Shown: positions 34,164 through 39,381 of the stretch, in pieces
How positions within the stretch are numbered: the first letter of the stretch is position 1
Layout of the letters: the number at the start of each line of letters is the position of its first letter
Origin: Bacillus sp. N1-1
GTDB lineage: Bacteria; Bacillota; Bacilli; Bacillales; Guptibacillaceae
Direction: 5' to 3'
NCBI RefSeq assembly: GCF_009818105.1
Contig: NZ_CP046564.1
Coordinates: forward strand, 434,001-498,000
Length of the DNA stretch: 64,000 nucleotides
The notes under the pieces: model-generated
What the model saw: only the letters and a program-made list of their open reading frames with translations
Told to the model about the DNA's origin: nothing
The model's database searches: none
Position numbers and translations under genes: made by a program

Positions 34164-35564
34164 TTGTTGGATAACAAAAAGGTGAAAGGGACAGGGCTTA
34201 CGAATGGTCAAACGATTCCTTTAACAATTAAACGATTAGGAATAAACGGAGAAGGTGTAGGATTCTTTAAGAGAACTGTTGTTTTTGTACCAGGAGCACT
34301 GCCTGGGGAAGAAATTACAGCTGAAGTGACAAAAGTTTTCCCTAACCGAGCAGAAGCCAAAGTAAAGCGGCTTCGTAAAAAGTCAAAGGATCGTGTTACT
34401 CCTCCATGTCCTGTTTATGAAGAATGTGGTGGATGTCAGCTACAACATATGAGTTATCAGGCTCAATTACGTGAGAAGCGTGATATCGTGATTCAGTCAT
34501 TTGAGCGGCATGCAAAATTAGGTGAAAACGATTTAACTATAAAACCCGTTATCGGAATGGAAGATCCATGGAATTATCGAAACAAGAGCCAGCTGCAGGT
34601 CAGAAAGCAAAAAGGGAAGGTCATTGCGGGGTTATACGGCGCGGGTTCTCATGAACTTGTTGAACTGACAAACTGCCTTGTTCAACATCCTGAAACAAAT
34701 CGCGTTACACGTCAGGTTGTAAACATTTTACAAGATTTAAACATTTCAATTTATCATGAAAAGAAGCGAAATGGTCTTGTTCGGACCATTGTGACAAGAG
34801 TGGGGTTTGAAACCGGTCAAATTCAACTTGTTCTTATTACTTCAGAAGAAACGATTCCTAGGAAAGAATTGTTGATTAAAGAAATTAAGAAAAGACTGCC
34901 AGAAGTTAGGTCCGTTATTCAAAATGTTAATGGGAAACGAACTTCGCTAATATTTGGTGAGAAAACTCTTTTATTAGAAGGTGAAGAAGTGATTCAAGAG
35001 TCATTAGGTGATTTGAATTTCGAATTATCTGCGCGTGCTTTCTTCCAACTTAATCCACGTCAAACCGTAAAACTATATGATGAAGTGAAAAAGGCCGCTA
35101 ATCTGACTGGTAACGAAAATATCATTGATGCTTATTGTGGAGTGGGCACAATTGGTCTTTGGCTTGCTGAGGAAGCCAAAGAAGTAAGAGGAATGGACGT
35201 CATCAAAGAGTCAATTGATGATGCAAGGGAGAATGCTCGAAGACACGGTTATGAGTCAAAAATGACTTATGATGTTGGAAAAGCAGAAGAAGTTGTACCG
35301 AAGTGGATAAAAGAAGGGTTTAAGCCGAATGTTATCGTGGTGGATCCACCTAGAACAGGTTGTGATGATACTTTATTAGCTACGATGGTGAAAGCGAAAG
35401 CAGATCGCATTGTTTATGTATCGTGTAATCCTTCTACTTTGGCAAAAGATGCTAGCTACTTAATGAAAAAAGGATATAAGCTGGAGCAATTGCAGCCAGT
35501 TGATATGTTTCCACAAACAAGTCATATAGAAGTAGTATCCGTTTTCAAGAAAAAACAGCGCTAA
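34164..35564 (+). CDS. rlmD: 23S rRNA (uracil-C5)-methyltransferase, RlmD/TrmA family (YfjO type)
   Basis: A 466-residue m5U methyltransferase: N-terminal TRAM domain (about 15-72), an iron-sulphur cluster site with Cys82, Cys88 and Cys91 ([10 protein letters not shown]) and Cys near 166, SAM motif [19 protein letters not shown], and the catalytic cysteine in [13 protein letters not shown]. It methylates a uridine of 23S rRNA or tRNA; the exact position cannot be read from the sequence. Two adjacent TTG codons (34164, 34167) follow AAGGAGAG. A DnaA-box cluster follows the gene. Confidence 0.9.
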
Positions 35565-35625
35565 AATCGTCAGTCGCGTAGTCTCGACTGAAAAGCGAAA
35601 ATAGTCATCAACAATTTCCACAGAC

Positions 35626-35786
35626 TTATACACACGTTAAAAAGAGTTTACACGCATTACTAACAAATTTATCAACATTATCCACAAAAAATGCAGATAT
35701 TATCAACAGTTTTAGATGTTAATAAATTTTCCCGTTGTGTCGAGGATCATGAAATGTTGTCCACATTATTAACAACTTGTGGATAA
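35626..35786. promoter_or_regulatory. Cluster of DnaA boxes
   Basis: Seven 9-mers at or one base from the TTATNCACA consensus: 35626 (TTATACACA, exact), 35669 (TTATCAACA), 35678 (TTATCCACA, exact), 35700 (TTATCAACA), 35757 (TTGTCCACA), 35766 (TTATTAACA), and on the minus strand 35778-35786 (TGTGGATAA, exact). Two pairs lie head to tail with no gap. No coding sequence occupies 35565-35856. Known families of such clusters titrate or redirect the initiator DnaA; that role here is inference. Confidence 0.75.
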
Positions 35787-35826
35787 CATGTTGTTAACTT
35801 CAGAATTGCATTTTTGTTCTGAATAT

Positions 35827-35853
35827 AAAAAGGGACCATTGCGGTCCCTTTTT
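35827..35853. terminator. Terminator between the DnaA-box region and a small minus-strand gene
   Basis: AAAAAGGGACC pairs with GGTCCCTTTTT across ATTGC, usable on both strands. Confidence 0.85.
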
Positions 35854-35856
35854 ATG

Positions 35857-36027
35857 TTATTTGTTTTTCTTGTTACGCTGATCTGCTGCTCGTGCTCTTT
35901 CTGCTGCTTTCGCATCAGCTGAATCGAATTCACTTGCAAATTCTACATCTTCGTTTTGTGCTGATGGAATTGGGTTTTTAGCCTGACGTTTTTGTTTACC
36001 TTCTGAATAATTTGGACGTTTTGCCAT
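35857..36027 (-). CDS. Small SASP-like protein with a germination-protease site
   Basis: A 56-residue, Ala- and Lys-rich protein beginning MAKRPNYSEGKQKRQ and containing VEFASEFDSADAKAA. EFASEF is the sequence that the spore germination protease GPR cuts in small acid-soluble spore proteins, and the segment parallels EFASETDAQEVKA in the gamma-type SASP of this same window. AGGAG stands nine bases before ATG 36027 and a terminator follows. I do not know a named family; a spore-core protein is the likely reading. Confidence 0.75.
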   Translation of the reverse strand: MAKRPNYSEGKQKRQAKNPIPSAQNEDVEFASEFDSADAKAAERARAADQRNKKNK

Positions 36028-36107
36028 CTTAATCAGCTCCTGTAAATGTGTTTGGAGAGGTTCTCTCCACTCATTAGGATGGCTTTTTATCAGTTAATTA
36101 TTCATAT

Positions 36108-36221
36108 TTACTTATGACCAGCCCTGTCAGCGCGTTTAAATTCACGCCCAAAAAGTACATCTTGTGTTTTTGTTAACGTCATTTTGGATTCTTTGTTATC
36201 TCTGCCTTTCCGTTTATCCAC
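36108..36221 (-). CDS. yfhE: YfhE-like small protein
   Basis: A 37-residue basic protein ending LTKTQDVLFGREFKRADRAG, similar to the short Bacillus YfhE protein (LxxTQEVLYxREFKxAD). GTG 36221 follows GAGAGGG by six bases; the frame remains open to 36323 but without a ribosome site. It lies in the yfh neighbourhood (yfhF, recX, yfhH, sspK, yfhJ, yfhP follow). Function unknown. Confidence 0.65.
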   Translation of the reverse strand: MDKRKGRDNKESKMTLTKTQDVLFGREFKRADRAGHK

Positions 36222-36324
36222 AATAATCCCTCTCTTCTTTAAGATGGTACTAGCATTGCCATCCAAAAAAGTTCTATGCACATGTGGACAAAGGACATGT
36301 GCAAACGATTTGTTGTTAGTCAAC

Positions 36325-36351
36325 TAAAAAAAGTTCCTCTGAAAGGAACTT
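36325..36351 (-). terminator. Terminator of the GNAT gene
   Basis: AAGTTCCT (36331-36338) pairs with AGGAACTT (36344-36351); an A run on the plus strand gives the U tract of the minus-strand transcript. Confidence 0.78.
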
Positions 36352-36904
36352 ATGCTTCCATTTGAATCTCAACAGAGTCTATTCCCTCACGCATCACATG
36401 TAGGTGGTAATTGTCGCGTTCGATTTCATATAAATGATATGATTTTTCTCCGGCGTTGATTTTCTGATAAATTTCTGGCCATTTGTTATTGGCTTTTTCA
36501 ACATATGGGATTTTTTCTGCTGCTTTTTGCGAGCGCGTATTTTCCTTGTTGATCCTCATAAAAATGGTTTTGATTTGCTTATCAAAAAACAACTCGTTGA
36601 AAAAGGCTTCTTTTGCAAGTTGATTATACCCTTTGCCGTGATAGGGGGTGCCGATCCAGGTTCCGAGAAATCCAGTTTCTTGTTCAATATCATACAGATT
36701 AATCGTACCAATTGGGTTACCCCATTCATCAAGAATGGTACGAGAAACAAGCTCACCCTGTTCCTCAGCTTCAATTAGCTGTTTTGTTAAGAACAAATAC
36801 TCTTCGTAAGAACTTGCTTTATGACGCACGAATGGGAAGACAGCTGGGTCAACCATCAAGTCAAATAGCACATGACATTCCGACAGGTCACGATGTTTAA
36901 TCAT
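36350..36904 (-). CDS. GNAT family N-acetyltransferase
   Basis: A 184-residue acetyltransferase of the RimJ/RimL-like group: LWIGTPY-type motif A is present as TWIGTPYHGKGYNQLAKEAF, with FMRINKENTRSQKAAEKI following it. Substrate unknown; relatives modify ribosomal proteins, polyamines or antibiotics. ATG 36904 follows ACAGGAGGG; the open frame upstream to 36991 runs through the hairpin region and is not coding. Its leader contains two competing hairpins and a tRNA-like sequence. Confidence 0.87.
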   Translation of the reverse strand: MIKHRDLSECHVLFDLMVDPAVFPFVRHKASSYEEYLFLTKQLIEAEEQGELVSRTILDEWGNPIGTINLYDIEQETGFLGTWIGTPYHGKGYNQLAKEAFFNELFFDKQIKTIFMRINKENTRSQKAAEKIPYVEKANNKWPEIYQKINAGEKSYHLYEIERDNYHLHVMREGIDSVEIQMEA

Positions 36905-36918
36905 GAGTTTCCCTCCTG

Positions 36919-36979
36919 TCGAGGGCAGACGAATCCCCACCCTCGAATAATAGTATGTTGAATTATTATTCGGGGTGGG
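36919..36979 (-). promoter_or_regulatory. Two mutually exclusive hairpins in the leader of the GNAT gene
   Basis: Hairpin A: 36936-36952 pairs with 36964-36979 (CCCACCC..GAATAATA with TATTATTC..GGGTGGG, one bulge, 11-base loop). Hairpin B: TCGAGGG (36919-36925) with CCCTCGA (36940-36946). They share 36940-36946, so only one can form. B ends four bases before the GGAGG ribosome site on the minus-strand RNA. Confidence 0.45.
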
Positions 36980-37035
36980 AATCGAACCCACTAGGACCAG
37001 TCATTGCTGGTGGCGCACCAATTGCCTTCCCATAT
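36967..37035 (-). ncRNA. tRNA-like element, probably a tRNA remnant
   Basis: Read on the minus strand from 37035, 69 bases fold as a tRNA: acceptor ATATGGG with CCCGAAT (one mismatch), a D arm GGC-loop-GCC with AATTGG in the loop, an anticodon-like arm ACCAG-CAATGA-CTGGT, four-base variable loop, and a perfect T arm GTGGG-TTCGATT-CCCAC. The anticodon loop has six bases and no T at the second position, and no CCA is encoded. It is therefore not a normal tRNA; a decayed or repurposed tRNA is the best reading. Confidence 0.45.
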
Positions 37036-38461: not shown

Positions 38462-38493
38462 AAAAAAACCTGCTGATATTATACCAGCAGGTT
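38462..38493 (-). terminator. Terminator of yfhF
   Basis: ACCTGCTG (38468-38475) pairs with CAGCAGGT (38485-38492), with the A run giving a U tract on the minus strand. Confidence 0.82.
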
Positions 38494-39381
38494 CTCGAGA
38501 GCATCTTTTAATTTAATATAGCGGAAAGGGTAGCCGAGTTCTTTCGCTTTTTGTGGTAGGACACATTGACCTTTTAACACAATTCCACTCTTTTCTCCTA
38601 AAGCAGCCTGCACTGGCGCTTCTGGAACAGGCATCCAGTGTGGTCGATTGAGTACTTCACCGACCGTTTTACCAAAATCATTCATTCTTTTTGGTTCAGG
38701 TGCCGTAACGTTTAATGGTCCTTGAACTGATTCATGATCGACGGCAAATCTGATCATTCCAACAACGTCCATGATATGTACCCAGGAATACCATTGACGT
38801 CCGTCTCCAAGTTTTCCACCCATAAATAATTTATATGGGAGTACCATTAATGGAAGTGCACCTTCTTCGCCAAGAATAACGCCAAACCGAGCAAGAACTG
38901 TTCTTACACCGTGATTTTGTGCTTTCATTGCTTCATTTTCCCATTTTCTTGAAACATCAGCCAGAAAATCTGAGCCGGGATCTGTATCATTTTCCGTAAA
39001 TGATTGATCAAGAGAGGAGCCATAAAAGCCAATCGCCGAAGCGTTTACAAGTACGCGAGGTTTTTGATCAAGTTTGTCTATGATTGAAGTGATCTCTCTA
39101 GTTGCGGAGATACGACTATCGAGAATACGTTGTTTCCGCTCTTCCGTCCATCGTCCACTATTGATCGACTCGCCGGCTAAATTAATAAATGCATGAATAT
39201 TAGGCAGTTCTTTTTCAGGCTCAGCGTCGTCCTGCAACCATTTCACATATGTAACACCTTTTTTGACAGGTTTGTTTGCAGGATTACGTGTTAGGATATA
39301 CACAGAGTGCCCATCATTAACAAATGACTCAGTTAGAGCGCTTCCGACAAAACCTGTTCCCCCGGTGATCGCAATGTTCAT
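38479..39381 (-). CDS. yfhF: YfhF, TIGR01777 family NAD(P)-binding oxidoreductase
   Basis: A 300-residue extended SDR-like protein (epimerase family) with ITGGTGFVGSALTESF at the N terminus, NLAGESINSGRWTEERKQRI, a VLVNASAIGFYGS segment with the catalytic Tyr region, and a C-terminal DUF1731-type part with NRPHWMPVPEAPVQAALGE. Function is unknown; E. coli YfcH and plant relatives belong here. GGAGG precedes the start. It lies head to head with recX as in the yfh cluster. Confidence 0.93.
   Translation of the reverse strand: MNIAITGGTGFVGSALTESFVNDGHSVYILTRNPANKPVKKGVTYVKWLQDDAEPEKELPNIHAFINLAGESINSGRWTEERKQRILDSRISATREITSIIDKLDQKPRVLVNASAIGFYGSSLDQSFTENDTDPGSDFLADVSRKWENEAMKAQNHGVRTVLARFGVILGEEGALPLMVLPYKLFMGGKLGDGRQWYSWVHIMDVVGMIRFAVDHESVQGPLNVTAPEPKRMNDFGKTVGEVLNRPHWMPVPEAPVQAALGEKSGIVLKGQCVLPQKAKELGYPFRYIKLKDALENLLV

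Follow-up and report, generated by a model that had tools for sequence, protein, structure and literature searches.

An off-origin array of DnaA boxes downstream of rlmD in Bacillus sp. N1-1, conserved in the genus and sharing its geometry with the tsaD/ydiF cluster

What does a dense group of DnaA boxes do between two converging genes, far from any replication gene? The window analyzed here is a stretch of 64,000 nucleotides, C1:434001-498000 of the 4,497,340-bp single-contig genome of Bacillus sp. N1-1, whose contig begins at dnaA. The closest named relative by RlmD is a Pseudalkalibacillus hwajinpoensis strain (97%). The cluster lies at C1:469.6 kb, 469.6 kb from dnaA, and is thus outside oriC. 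The sole dnaA found in the genome (one match at E <= 1e-100) occupies C1:1-1350 and is followed by dnaN, the two genes together spanning C1:1-2691, some 470 kb from the cluster. Neither dnaA nor dnaN adjoins the cluster as they do the origin, and the cluster is, as the preliminary description stated, not the chromosomal origin.

In 35626-35786 of the window, eight sites match TTATNCACA with no more than one mismatch (35626+, 35669+, 35678+, 35700+, 35717-, 35757+, 35766+, and 35778-). The preliminary description had counted seven; all the sites that it named are present, but the true number is eight. Its three exact matches (35626, 35678, and 35778) and its two directly abutting pairs (35669/35678 and 35757/35766) were likewise recovered. 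Two-mismatch sites at 35605, 35614, 35657, and 35789- lengthen the array, the first three of them being conserved in the genus. The whole cluster extends over 35600..35797 with the template in plus orientation, where the tsaD/ydiF profile R1, described below, matches 35611-35790 with 70 bits and the rlmD profile R2 matches C1:469600-469797.

The array opens with two weak boxes of two mismatches each: a1 (TCATCAACA, 35605..35613, +), with a pairwise identity of 0.92 among the 14 genus genomes and a position corresponding to the first box of the tsaD/ydiF cluster, and a2 (ATTTCCACA, 35614..35622, +), which abuts a1 and has a genus identity of 0.94. The exact box a3 (TTATACACA, 35626..35634, +) follows 12 bp after a2. 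Box b (TTACTAACA, 35657..35665, +) has two mismatches here; its position holds an exact TTATACACA in six genus members (G002, G013, G012, G007, G010, and G003) and is occupied in only 2 of the 16 tsaD/ydiF representatives. Box c (TTATCAACA, one mismatch, 35669..35677, +) is abutted by the exact box d (TTATCCACA, 35678..35686, +), and box e, again TTATCAACA with one mismatch (35700..35708, +), comes 22 bp after d. The eighth site is box f (TTATTAACA, one mismatch, 35717..35725, -), which has a counterpart in 1 of the 16 tsaD/ydiF patterns. Box g (TTGTCCACA, one mismatch, 35757..35765, +) is abutted by box h (TTATTAACA, one mismatch, 35766..35774, +), which is sub-threshold in most genus members. 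The exact and inverted box i (TTATCCACA, 35778..35786, -) lies 12 bp after h, and an extra weak inverted site of two mismatches (TTAACAACA, 35789..35797, -) is kept in some, not all, genus members.

For the comparison with chance, the background consisted of fifteen 20-kb stretches of the same chromosome (300 kb of 4.5 Mb), which contained 279 sites with at most one mismatch. The densest 160 bp in this sample held four sites, in one case, versus eight in the cluster. By the same measure, the dnaA-dnaN stretch reached six, the region upstream of dnaA five, and the tsaD/ydiF region six. The density also exceeds an AT-adjusted background: in first-order Markov simulations with the AT-rich composition of the interval itself, none of 5000 sequences reached eight sites (mean 0.66, maximum 5), and none reached three exact sites. 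Among 300 permuted motifs, one reached eight; this motif, TATCNACAT, is a shifted-register overlap of the box motif. The second-best reached six, and the mean was 0.58. Background, Markov, and motif controls thus rule out chance clustering in AT-rich DNA. The whole 64-kb window contains 82 sites versus a mean of 73.6, and 16 of 100 shuffles were as high; a site total above chance across the window was therefore ruled out, and it is the clustering that is unusual, not the count.

A genome-wide search for pairs of TTATNMACA boxes, same-strand or facing and separated by at most 30 bp, found more than one pair in just two places, the tsaD and tsaD/ydiF region (266.8-267.3 kb) and the cluster itself (469.7-469.8 kb). 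Single pairs occurred downstream of dnaA (1393) and at 3916.5, 4247.4, and 4461.8 kb, with one facing pair at 4086.1 kb. Much the same spacing also recurs at another, unlinked locus and in many related bacteria (see below), and the interval 35626-35786 is for that reason very probably a genuine site that holds DnaA off the origin, as opposed to boxes clustered by chance.

Both neighboring genes end at the cluster. On one side, rlmD (34164..35564, +), encoding a 23S rRNA (uracil-1939-C5)-methyltransferase (TIGR00479, 574 bits, cut-off 184), points its 3' end towards the boxes; on the other, a yfhD-like small gene (35857..36027, -; PF14151 with 22.3 bits, under the cut-off of 27) is convergent to it. 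The gene order past the cluster is yfhD-like, yfhE, GNAT acetyltransferase, amidohydrolase, yfhF, and recX. The yfhE-like small gene (36108..36323, -; PF14152, 41.8 bits, cut-off 27) has an uncertain start, and the GNAT acetyltransferase gene (36350..36991, -; PF13302, 54.8 bits) remains near the cluster in several families. The TIGR01777 oxidoreductase gene (38479..39381, -), which we take to be yfhF, was the anchor gene for the synteny test.

An intrinsic terminator-like hairpin (35822..35858, +) with the stem AAAAAGGGACC/GGTCCCTTTTT lies between the cluster and yfhD. Its GGGACC arm is conserved in most genus members, its loop is variable, and its stem suggests that it may work in both directions. 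A short hairpin without a T tract, recognized by eye right after rlmD (35570-35591, TCAGTCG...CGACTGA), is not kept in more distant genus members. Around the yfhE start, a second small box group spans 36214-36291, with an exact site at 36214 and one-mismatch sites at 36274 and 36283-. An exact TTATCCACA occurs at the 36214 position in 10 of the 14 genus genomes and the adjoining pair in 8 of the 14; since the 36214 box overlaps a possible GTG start, coding constraint may explain its conservation. The Rfam search of 35400-36400 at gathering score gave no structured RNA match, and no plasmid relative of the interval was found.

All 14 genus genomes examined, including that of strain N1-1, have six to eight boxes per 160 bp downstream of rlmD, with box positions conserved in each. 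Six to eight boxes also occur downstream of rlmD in G014 (same family), P. salsuginis, and strain YIM B00296. Over the 14 genus genomes, the 99 box columns have a pairwise identity of 0.884 with 66 invariant columns, whereas the 84 spacer columns have an identity of 0.46 with 5 invariant. No circular shift of the box mask, out of 182, gave as strong a contrast. Losses affect single boxes in single members: e is sub-threshold in G011 and G003, and f is missing in three genomes (G002, G013, and G012). The box variants at fixed places (TTATCAACA, TTATTAACA, TTATACACA, and TTATCCACA) alter inside the consensus. Because the spacers have diverged so far while the boxes have stayed alike, the alignment indicates that the boxes at the rlmD-side locus are under selection now. 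A hidden gene in the interval was also considered; the spacer divergence and the length changes of one or two bases within the genus argue against a coding interval.

The N1-1 genome contains a second cluster at C1:267.2 kb, between tsaD (gcp) and an ABC-F gene that is presumably ydiF, judging from its position after tsaD. Read on the minus strand, its spacing is 9-12-42-9-22-57-9-13(inverted), and that of the rlmD cluster is 9-12-43-9-22-57-9-12(inverted). The rlmD cluster thus has the order, orientation, and spacing of the tsaD/ydiF type (9-12-42/43-9-22-57-9-12/13, last box inverted). Of the boxes in the N1-1 tsaD/ydiF cluster, g has two mismatches and h (CTATTCACC) could be assigned only by visual inspection. 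With good boxes only (at most one mismatch), the two clusters of this genome agreed in 5 of 7 positions, a level that random placement attained in 33 of 20000 runs, interval permutation in 199 of 20000, and permutation with the orientation order kept in 524 of 20000. With the weak boxes added, the agreement was 8 of 9, and none of 5000 random placements was as good. As the good-box agreement within this genome is only 5 of 7, the case for a shared geometry rests on profiles and relatives.

Two profiles were used for this comparison. R1 is a sequence-only profile of 16 tsaD/ydiF clusters (14 genus genomes, G014, and G024) with no rlmD-side sequence, and R2 was derived from 15 rlmD clusters, including that of N1-1, with G014 in its alignment. 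When R1 was searched against the N1-1 genome, the rlmD cluster was matched at E = 4.3e-19, second in 4.5 Mb to tsaD/ydiF alone, with a single-base insertion and a single-base deletion in 180 bp. R2 in turn matched the tsaD/ydiF cluster at E = 1.1e-15. For both profiles, the next match in this genome was an rlmH-side cluster at -35 kb, with E of 2.4e-5 (R1) and 5.9e-5 (R2). The genome also has clusters beside rlmH and beside a Sua5/TsaC gene; we take rlmH to correspond to yydA and the Sua5/TsaC gene to ywlC. The rlmH cluster fits the template partly (R1 E 2e-5) and the ywlC cluster hardly (E 0.2).

For the geometry control, the real rlmD cluster scored 71.7 bits against a DNA HMM of the tsaD/ydiF alignment. 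Permuting the spacers with the boxes unchanged resulted in a mean of 25.7 bits (maximum 56.3), and permuting the boxes with the spacers unchanged in a mean of 27.4 bits (maximum 70.6); in each case, 0 of 1000 permutations reached the real score. When the spacer letters were shuffled and the geometry was kept, the mean was 58.5 bits, and 9 of 1000 reached it. These controls indicate that the likeness consists mainly of spacing and box identity and in small part of spacer sequence.

Of 30 tsaD loci tested with R1, 27 matched (L146, L150, and L153 did not), and 16 of these were chosen as representatives because the genus would otherwise count many times. On the rlmD/yfhF side, 32 loci minus L225, L227, and L229, in which the template lies more than 6 kb from yfhF, left 29, with 17 representatives; the loci L233 and L236-L239, at other places, were outside the occupancy analysis. 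For occupancy, offsets were allowed to deviate by up to 2 bp and each locus was aligned on its best anchor, so that the figures lean towards the template. The 9-base abutment, at first described as unusual, turned out to be a recurrent spacing element, occurring in 14 of the 16 tsaD/ydiF-type and 16 of the 17 rlmD/yfhF-type representatives. Both classes repeatedly show same-strand distances of 9, 12, 21-22, 31, 42-43, 51-52, and 73 bp, in a histogram that is independent of the template but whose loci were picked by R1. The classes also differ: in the rlmD class, b is occupied more often, f is added in some members, and a1 and a2 are weaker. At one locus downstream of tsaD (L158, G042), the template is inverted relative to tsaD with its boxes on the plus strand, an indication that the whole array is able to invert as one block.

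We then considered the order as a whole with 61 genomes, comprising N1-1, 13 others of the genus, one of the family (G014), and 46 of the order, each with its own family label. R1 matched somewhere at E <= 0.01 in all 61. Within the genus, all 14 genomes had a template match no more than 6 kb from yfhF. Outside it, 47 genomes were examined, 42 of which have yfhF; at least 19 of these 42 had such a match, where about 0.4 would be expected by a rough estimate of three matches per 4-Mb genome. The count of 19 is a lower bound, as R1 matches were listed to E of about 0.001 under stricter filters, and tsaD/ydiF hits and some dnaA-side hits were excluded. R2 also matched near yfhF in 15 of the 19, 14 of them independent, G014 being in the R2 alignment. 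By R1 best match, the template is directed towards yfhF in 18 of the 19, and the exception, G057, conforms with R2.

The R1 E value was below 1e-5 in 13 of these 19 genomes. In the other six (G027, G032, G039, G045, G057, and G059) it was no better than 1e-5, the level of the dnaA-side matches, and these six therefore support a box cluster and hardly its geometry. R1 matched the dnaA-adjoining region at E of 1e-5 to 2e-4 in nine genomes (G012, G007, G002, G004, G001, G009, G006, G013, and G011), which may represent either the specificity floor of the profile or a partial sharing of the geometry by oriC.

The rlmD loci of other genera mostly lack boxes. A feature confined to the genus was nevertheless dropped as a reading, since in other genera the profiles find the template next to the GNAT/yfhF block, cut off from rlmD by intervening genes. 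As this separation occurs in several genomes, the GNAT/yfhF side is the more stable neighbor. In P. decolorationis, the GNAT gene adjoins the cluster; in Niallia circulans and Calidifontibacillus oryziterrae, the cluster is near recX; and in Sutcliffiella horikoshii, it lies beside a gene, presumably DoxX-like, that flanks the G024 cluster too. Four B. pumilus-group genomes have the tsaD/ydiF cluster and, among the matches listed, none by yfhF or recX. The genes next to the template and their arrangement, judged mainly from ORFs of at least 80 aa, vary by family, being convergent in G031, G047, G017, G032, and G059, divergent in G023 and G024, and tandem in G049, G060, G042, and G050; G015 showed no clear arrangement. 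Among the matches listed, none was seen near yfhF in 23 of the 42 non-genus genomes, and the top-20 DnaA list of B. subtilis given in PMC4447404 contains no yfh site; the site therefore appears dispensable in many lineages.

The distance between cluster and dnaA within the genus is 469.6 kb in N1-1, 472.1 kb in G009, and about 429 kb in G007. In other families it is about 457 kb (G023), 449 kb (G059), 593 kb (G049), about 776 kb (G032), and about 874 kb (G027), where distances across contig ends assume circular contigs. A constant distance from oriC thus holds roughly in the three genus genomes measured and fails between families; the cluster is on the origin-proximal half, and its distance to dnaA is not fixed. 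Good template matches were also found away from yfhF and tsaD, with E of 6e-10 to 3e-14, at C1:2880284 in G055 (L229), C2:625907 in G038 (L227), and C24:50964 in G058 (L225). They may be additional loci with this blueprint, and G038 and G055 encode a similar predicted protein (PTPFLVGPVNVY) near the template.

The rlmD cluster shares with the tsaD/ydiF cluster, in both N1-1 and B. subtilis, a non-coding position between converging genes on the same chromosome arm and an array whose boxes have nearly the same order, orientation, and spacing. It differs in lying 202 kb further from dnaA and in its largely unrelated spacer sequences. With the other B. subtilis off-origin clusters (ywcI, trmE, ywlC, sda/yqeG, and yydA) it shares the grouping of DnaA boxes away from the origin. 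Those clusters lie upstream of genes, several of which they regulate as described in PMC4447404, whereas the rlmD cluster lies between converging genes. According to the same source, the interval downstream of gcp/ydiF in B. subtilis is one of eight high-affinity DnaA regions, with 10 sites. Its apparent Kd is reported as 0.15 uM for ATP-DnaA versus 0.33 uM for ADP-DnaA (PMC4447404, Table 1), and 16-fold more of its DNA was recovered with ATP-DnaA at 55 nM (PMC4447404). In two reviews, the off-origin clusters of B. subtilis are treated as DnaA-holding sites, and deletion of all six is stated to cause early initiation (PMC5295017, PMC13220808).

Density, genus conservation, and tsaD/ydiF geometry strongly support, at the level of sequence, an off-origin cluster of the B. 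subtilis kind, as had been proposed for this locus. The explanation that we consider likely is that it cooperatively holds DnaA away from oriC and restrains re-initiation. By analogy with B. subtilis, DnaA binding, nucleotide preference, and an effect on initiation would be expected in Bacillus sp. N1-1, whose DnaA is full, with the C-terminal DNA-binding domain. The eight good and three to four weak boxes, in the geometry 9-12-43-9-22-57-9-12 with the last box inverted, would bind DnaA cooperatively, ATP-DnaA presumably being the best-bound form. Lying about 470 kb from oriC, the array should be copied early in each replication round. The doubled array would then hold more DnaA off the origin soon after initiation, lowering free DnaA and restraining an early second initiation. 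The converging genes here, together with neighbors that differ between families, point to holding DnaA from oriC and not to gene regulation as the job of the array.

The most interesting rival, given how strictly the spacing is kept, is an active site: DnaA would assemble on the array into a defined complex that itself has an activity, comparable to E. coli datA, which promotes DnaA-ATP hydrolysis and requires IHF, or DARS, which acts in nucleotide exchange. In its favor, order, orientation, and spacing are common to two unlinked clusters and recur in other families. The offsets of a1 to e also lie roughly on one side of the DNA helix (at 10.5 bp the resultant is 0.905, a value equaled by 109 of 20000 random arrays). 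Boxes g and h do not share this phase; with them the resultant falls to 0.539. By its described features, datA is likewise an off-origin DnaA-box cluster, located more than 450 kb from oriC (PMC4451416), and it acts negatively on initiation (PMC5295017). However, B. subtilis is described in a review as having no homologues of IHF, Hda, or DiaA and no datA or DARS loci (PMC13220808), and cooperative binding alone can account for the kept spacing. We regard such an activity as an uncertain prospect, clearly less probable than the simple holding of DnaA.

The cluster could instead be a transcriptional control site at which DnaA regulates a neighboring gene, in the manner of the sda and ywlC sites of B. 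subtilis. A transcription-factor role of DnaA is indeed described for several clusters of that species (PMC4447404, PMC8203912), and two promoter-like matches lie on the minus strand within the cluster. However, 35500-36400 contains three promoter-like matches where 2.7 are expected from shuffled sequence, both neighbors are convergent and end at the cluster, and the adjoining genes and their arrangement differ between families. Converging neighbors here and varying neighbors elsewhere make gene regulation improbable.

The likeness of the two clusters might also be purely a relic, one having been copied from the other with the geometry functionless today. Their spacers share slightly more letters than would be expected (38% versus 27%, permutation p = 0.011), and this slight likeness is consistent with the shared geometry having possibly arisen by an old duplication. 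Such a duplication is compatible with a present function, and the divergence of the spacers relative to the boxes in the genus argues for current selection, so that we hold a functionless relic to be very improbable.

Like the oriC of this genome (rpmH-dnaA and dnaA-dnaN), the cluster has DnaA boxes of the same consensus. The many boxes and the 31.6% GC of the interval speak for a secondary origin or DNA-unwinding site. Unlike the cluster, however, oriC has an AT-rich segment, adjoins dnaA, and has another box layout, matching R1 only at E 0.07 or worse in N1-1 (1e-5 to 2e-4 in some genus members). A secondary origin or DNA-unwinding site is scarcely credible, because boxes flank dnaA on both sides at C1:1 in the style of a bipartite origin, and the interval has no unusually AT-rich unwinding region beside its boxes, its lowest-GC 27-mer having 18.5% GC (equaled or undercut in 37.5% of background segments) versus 7.4% at oriC (1.5%). 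The AT content thereby speaks against the unwinding site that the preliminary description had offered as its other reading.

Off-origin DnaA-box clusters are known as a kind. Within the literature searched, the rlmD-side site and the shared blueprint are unreported: the open-access literature, a scope that leaves out the main B. subtilis primary papers, gave no report of an rlmD/yfhF cluster or of a shared geometry. Because the geometry is common to two unlinked clusters over many families, it predicts that spacing matters beyond box number. A broader and speculative proposal is that Bacillales off-origin clusters share a blueprint of about nine boxes, at the tsaD/ydiF and rlmD/yfhD-yfhF loci of many families, which might build one DnaA complex that changes the state of DnaA (e.g., its ATP/ADP form or oligomer), a counterpart of datA/DARS and not a passive sponge. 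An active DnaA-controlling DNA site of this type in Bacillales thereby becomes directly testable, and a 2026 review states that the regulators balancing DnaA nucleotide forms in B. subtilis are still to be settled (PMC13220808). The profile from the shared geometry also provides a search tool for mapping such clusters in Bacillales genomes.

As a further observation, all four off-origin clusters examined in the N1-1 genome adjoin RNA-modification genes, namely tsaD (267.2 kb), rlmD (469.7 kb), rlmH (4461.9 kb), and Sua5/TsaC (4247.3 kb). The B. subtilis trmE cluster described in PMC4447404 is likewise beside an RNA-modification gene. These neighbors may be a coincidence, since the rlmD-type cluster lies away from rlmD elsewhere.
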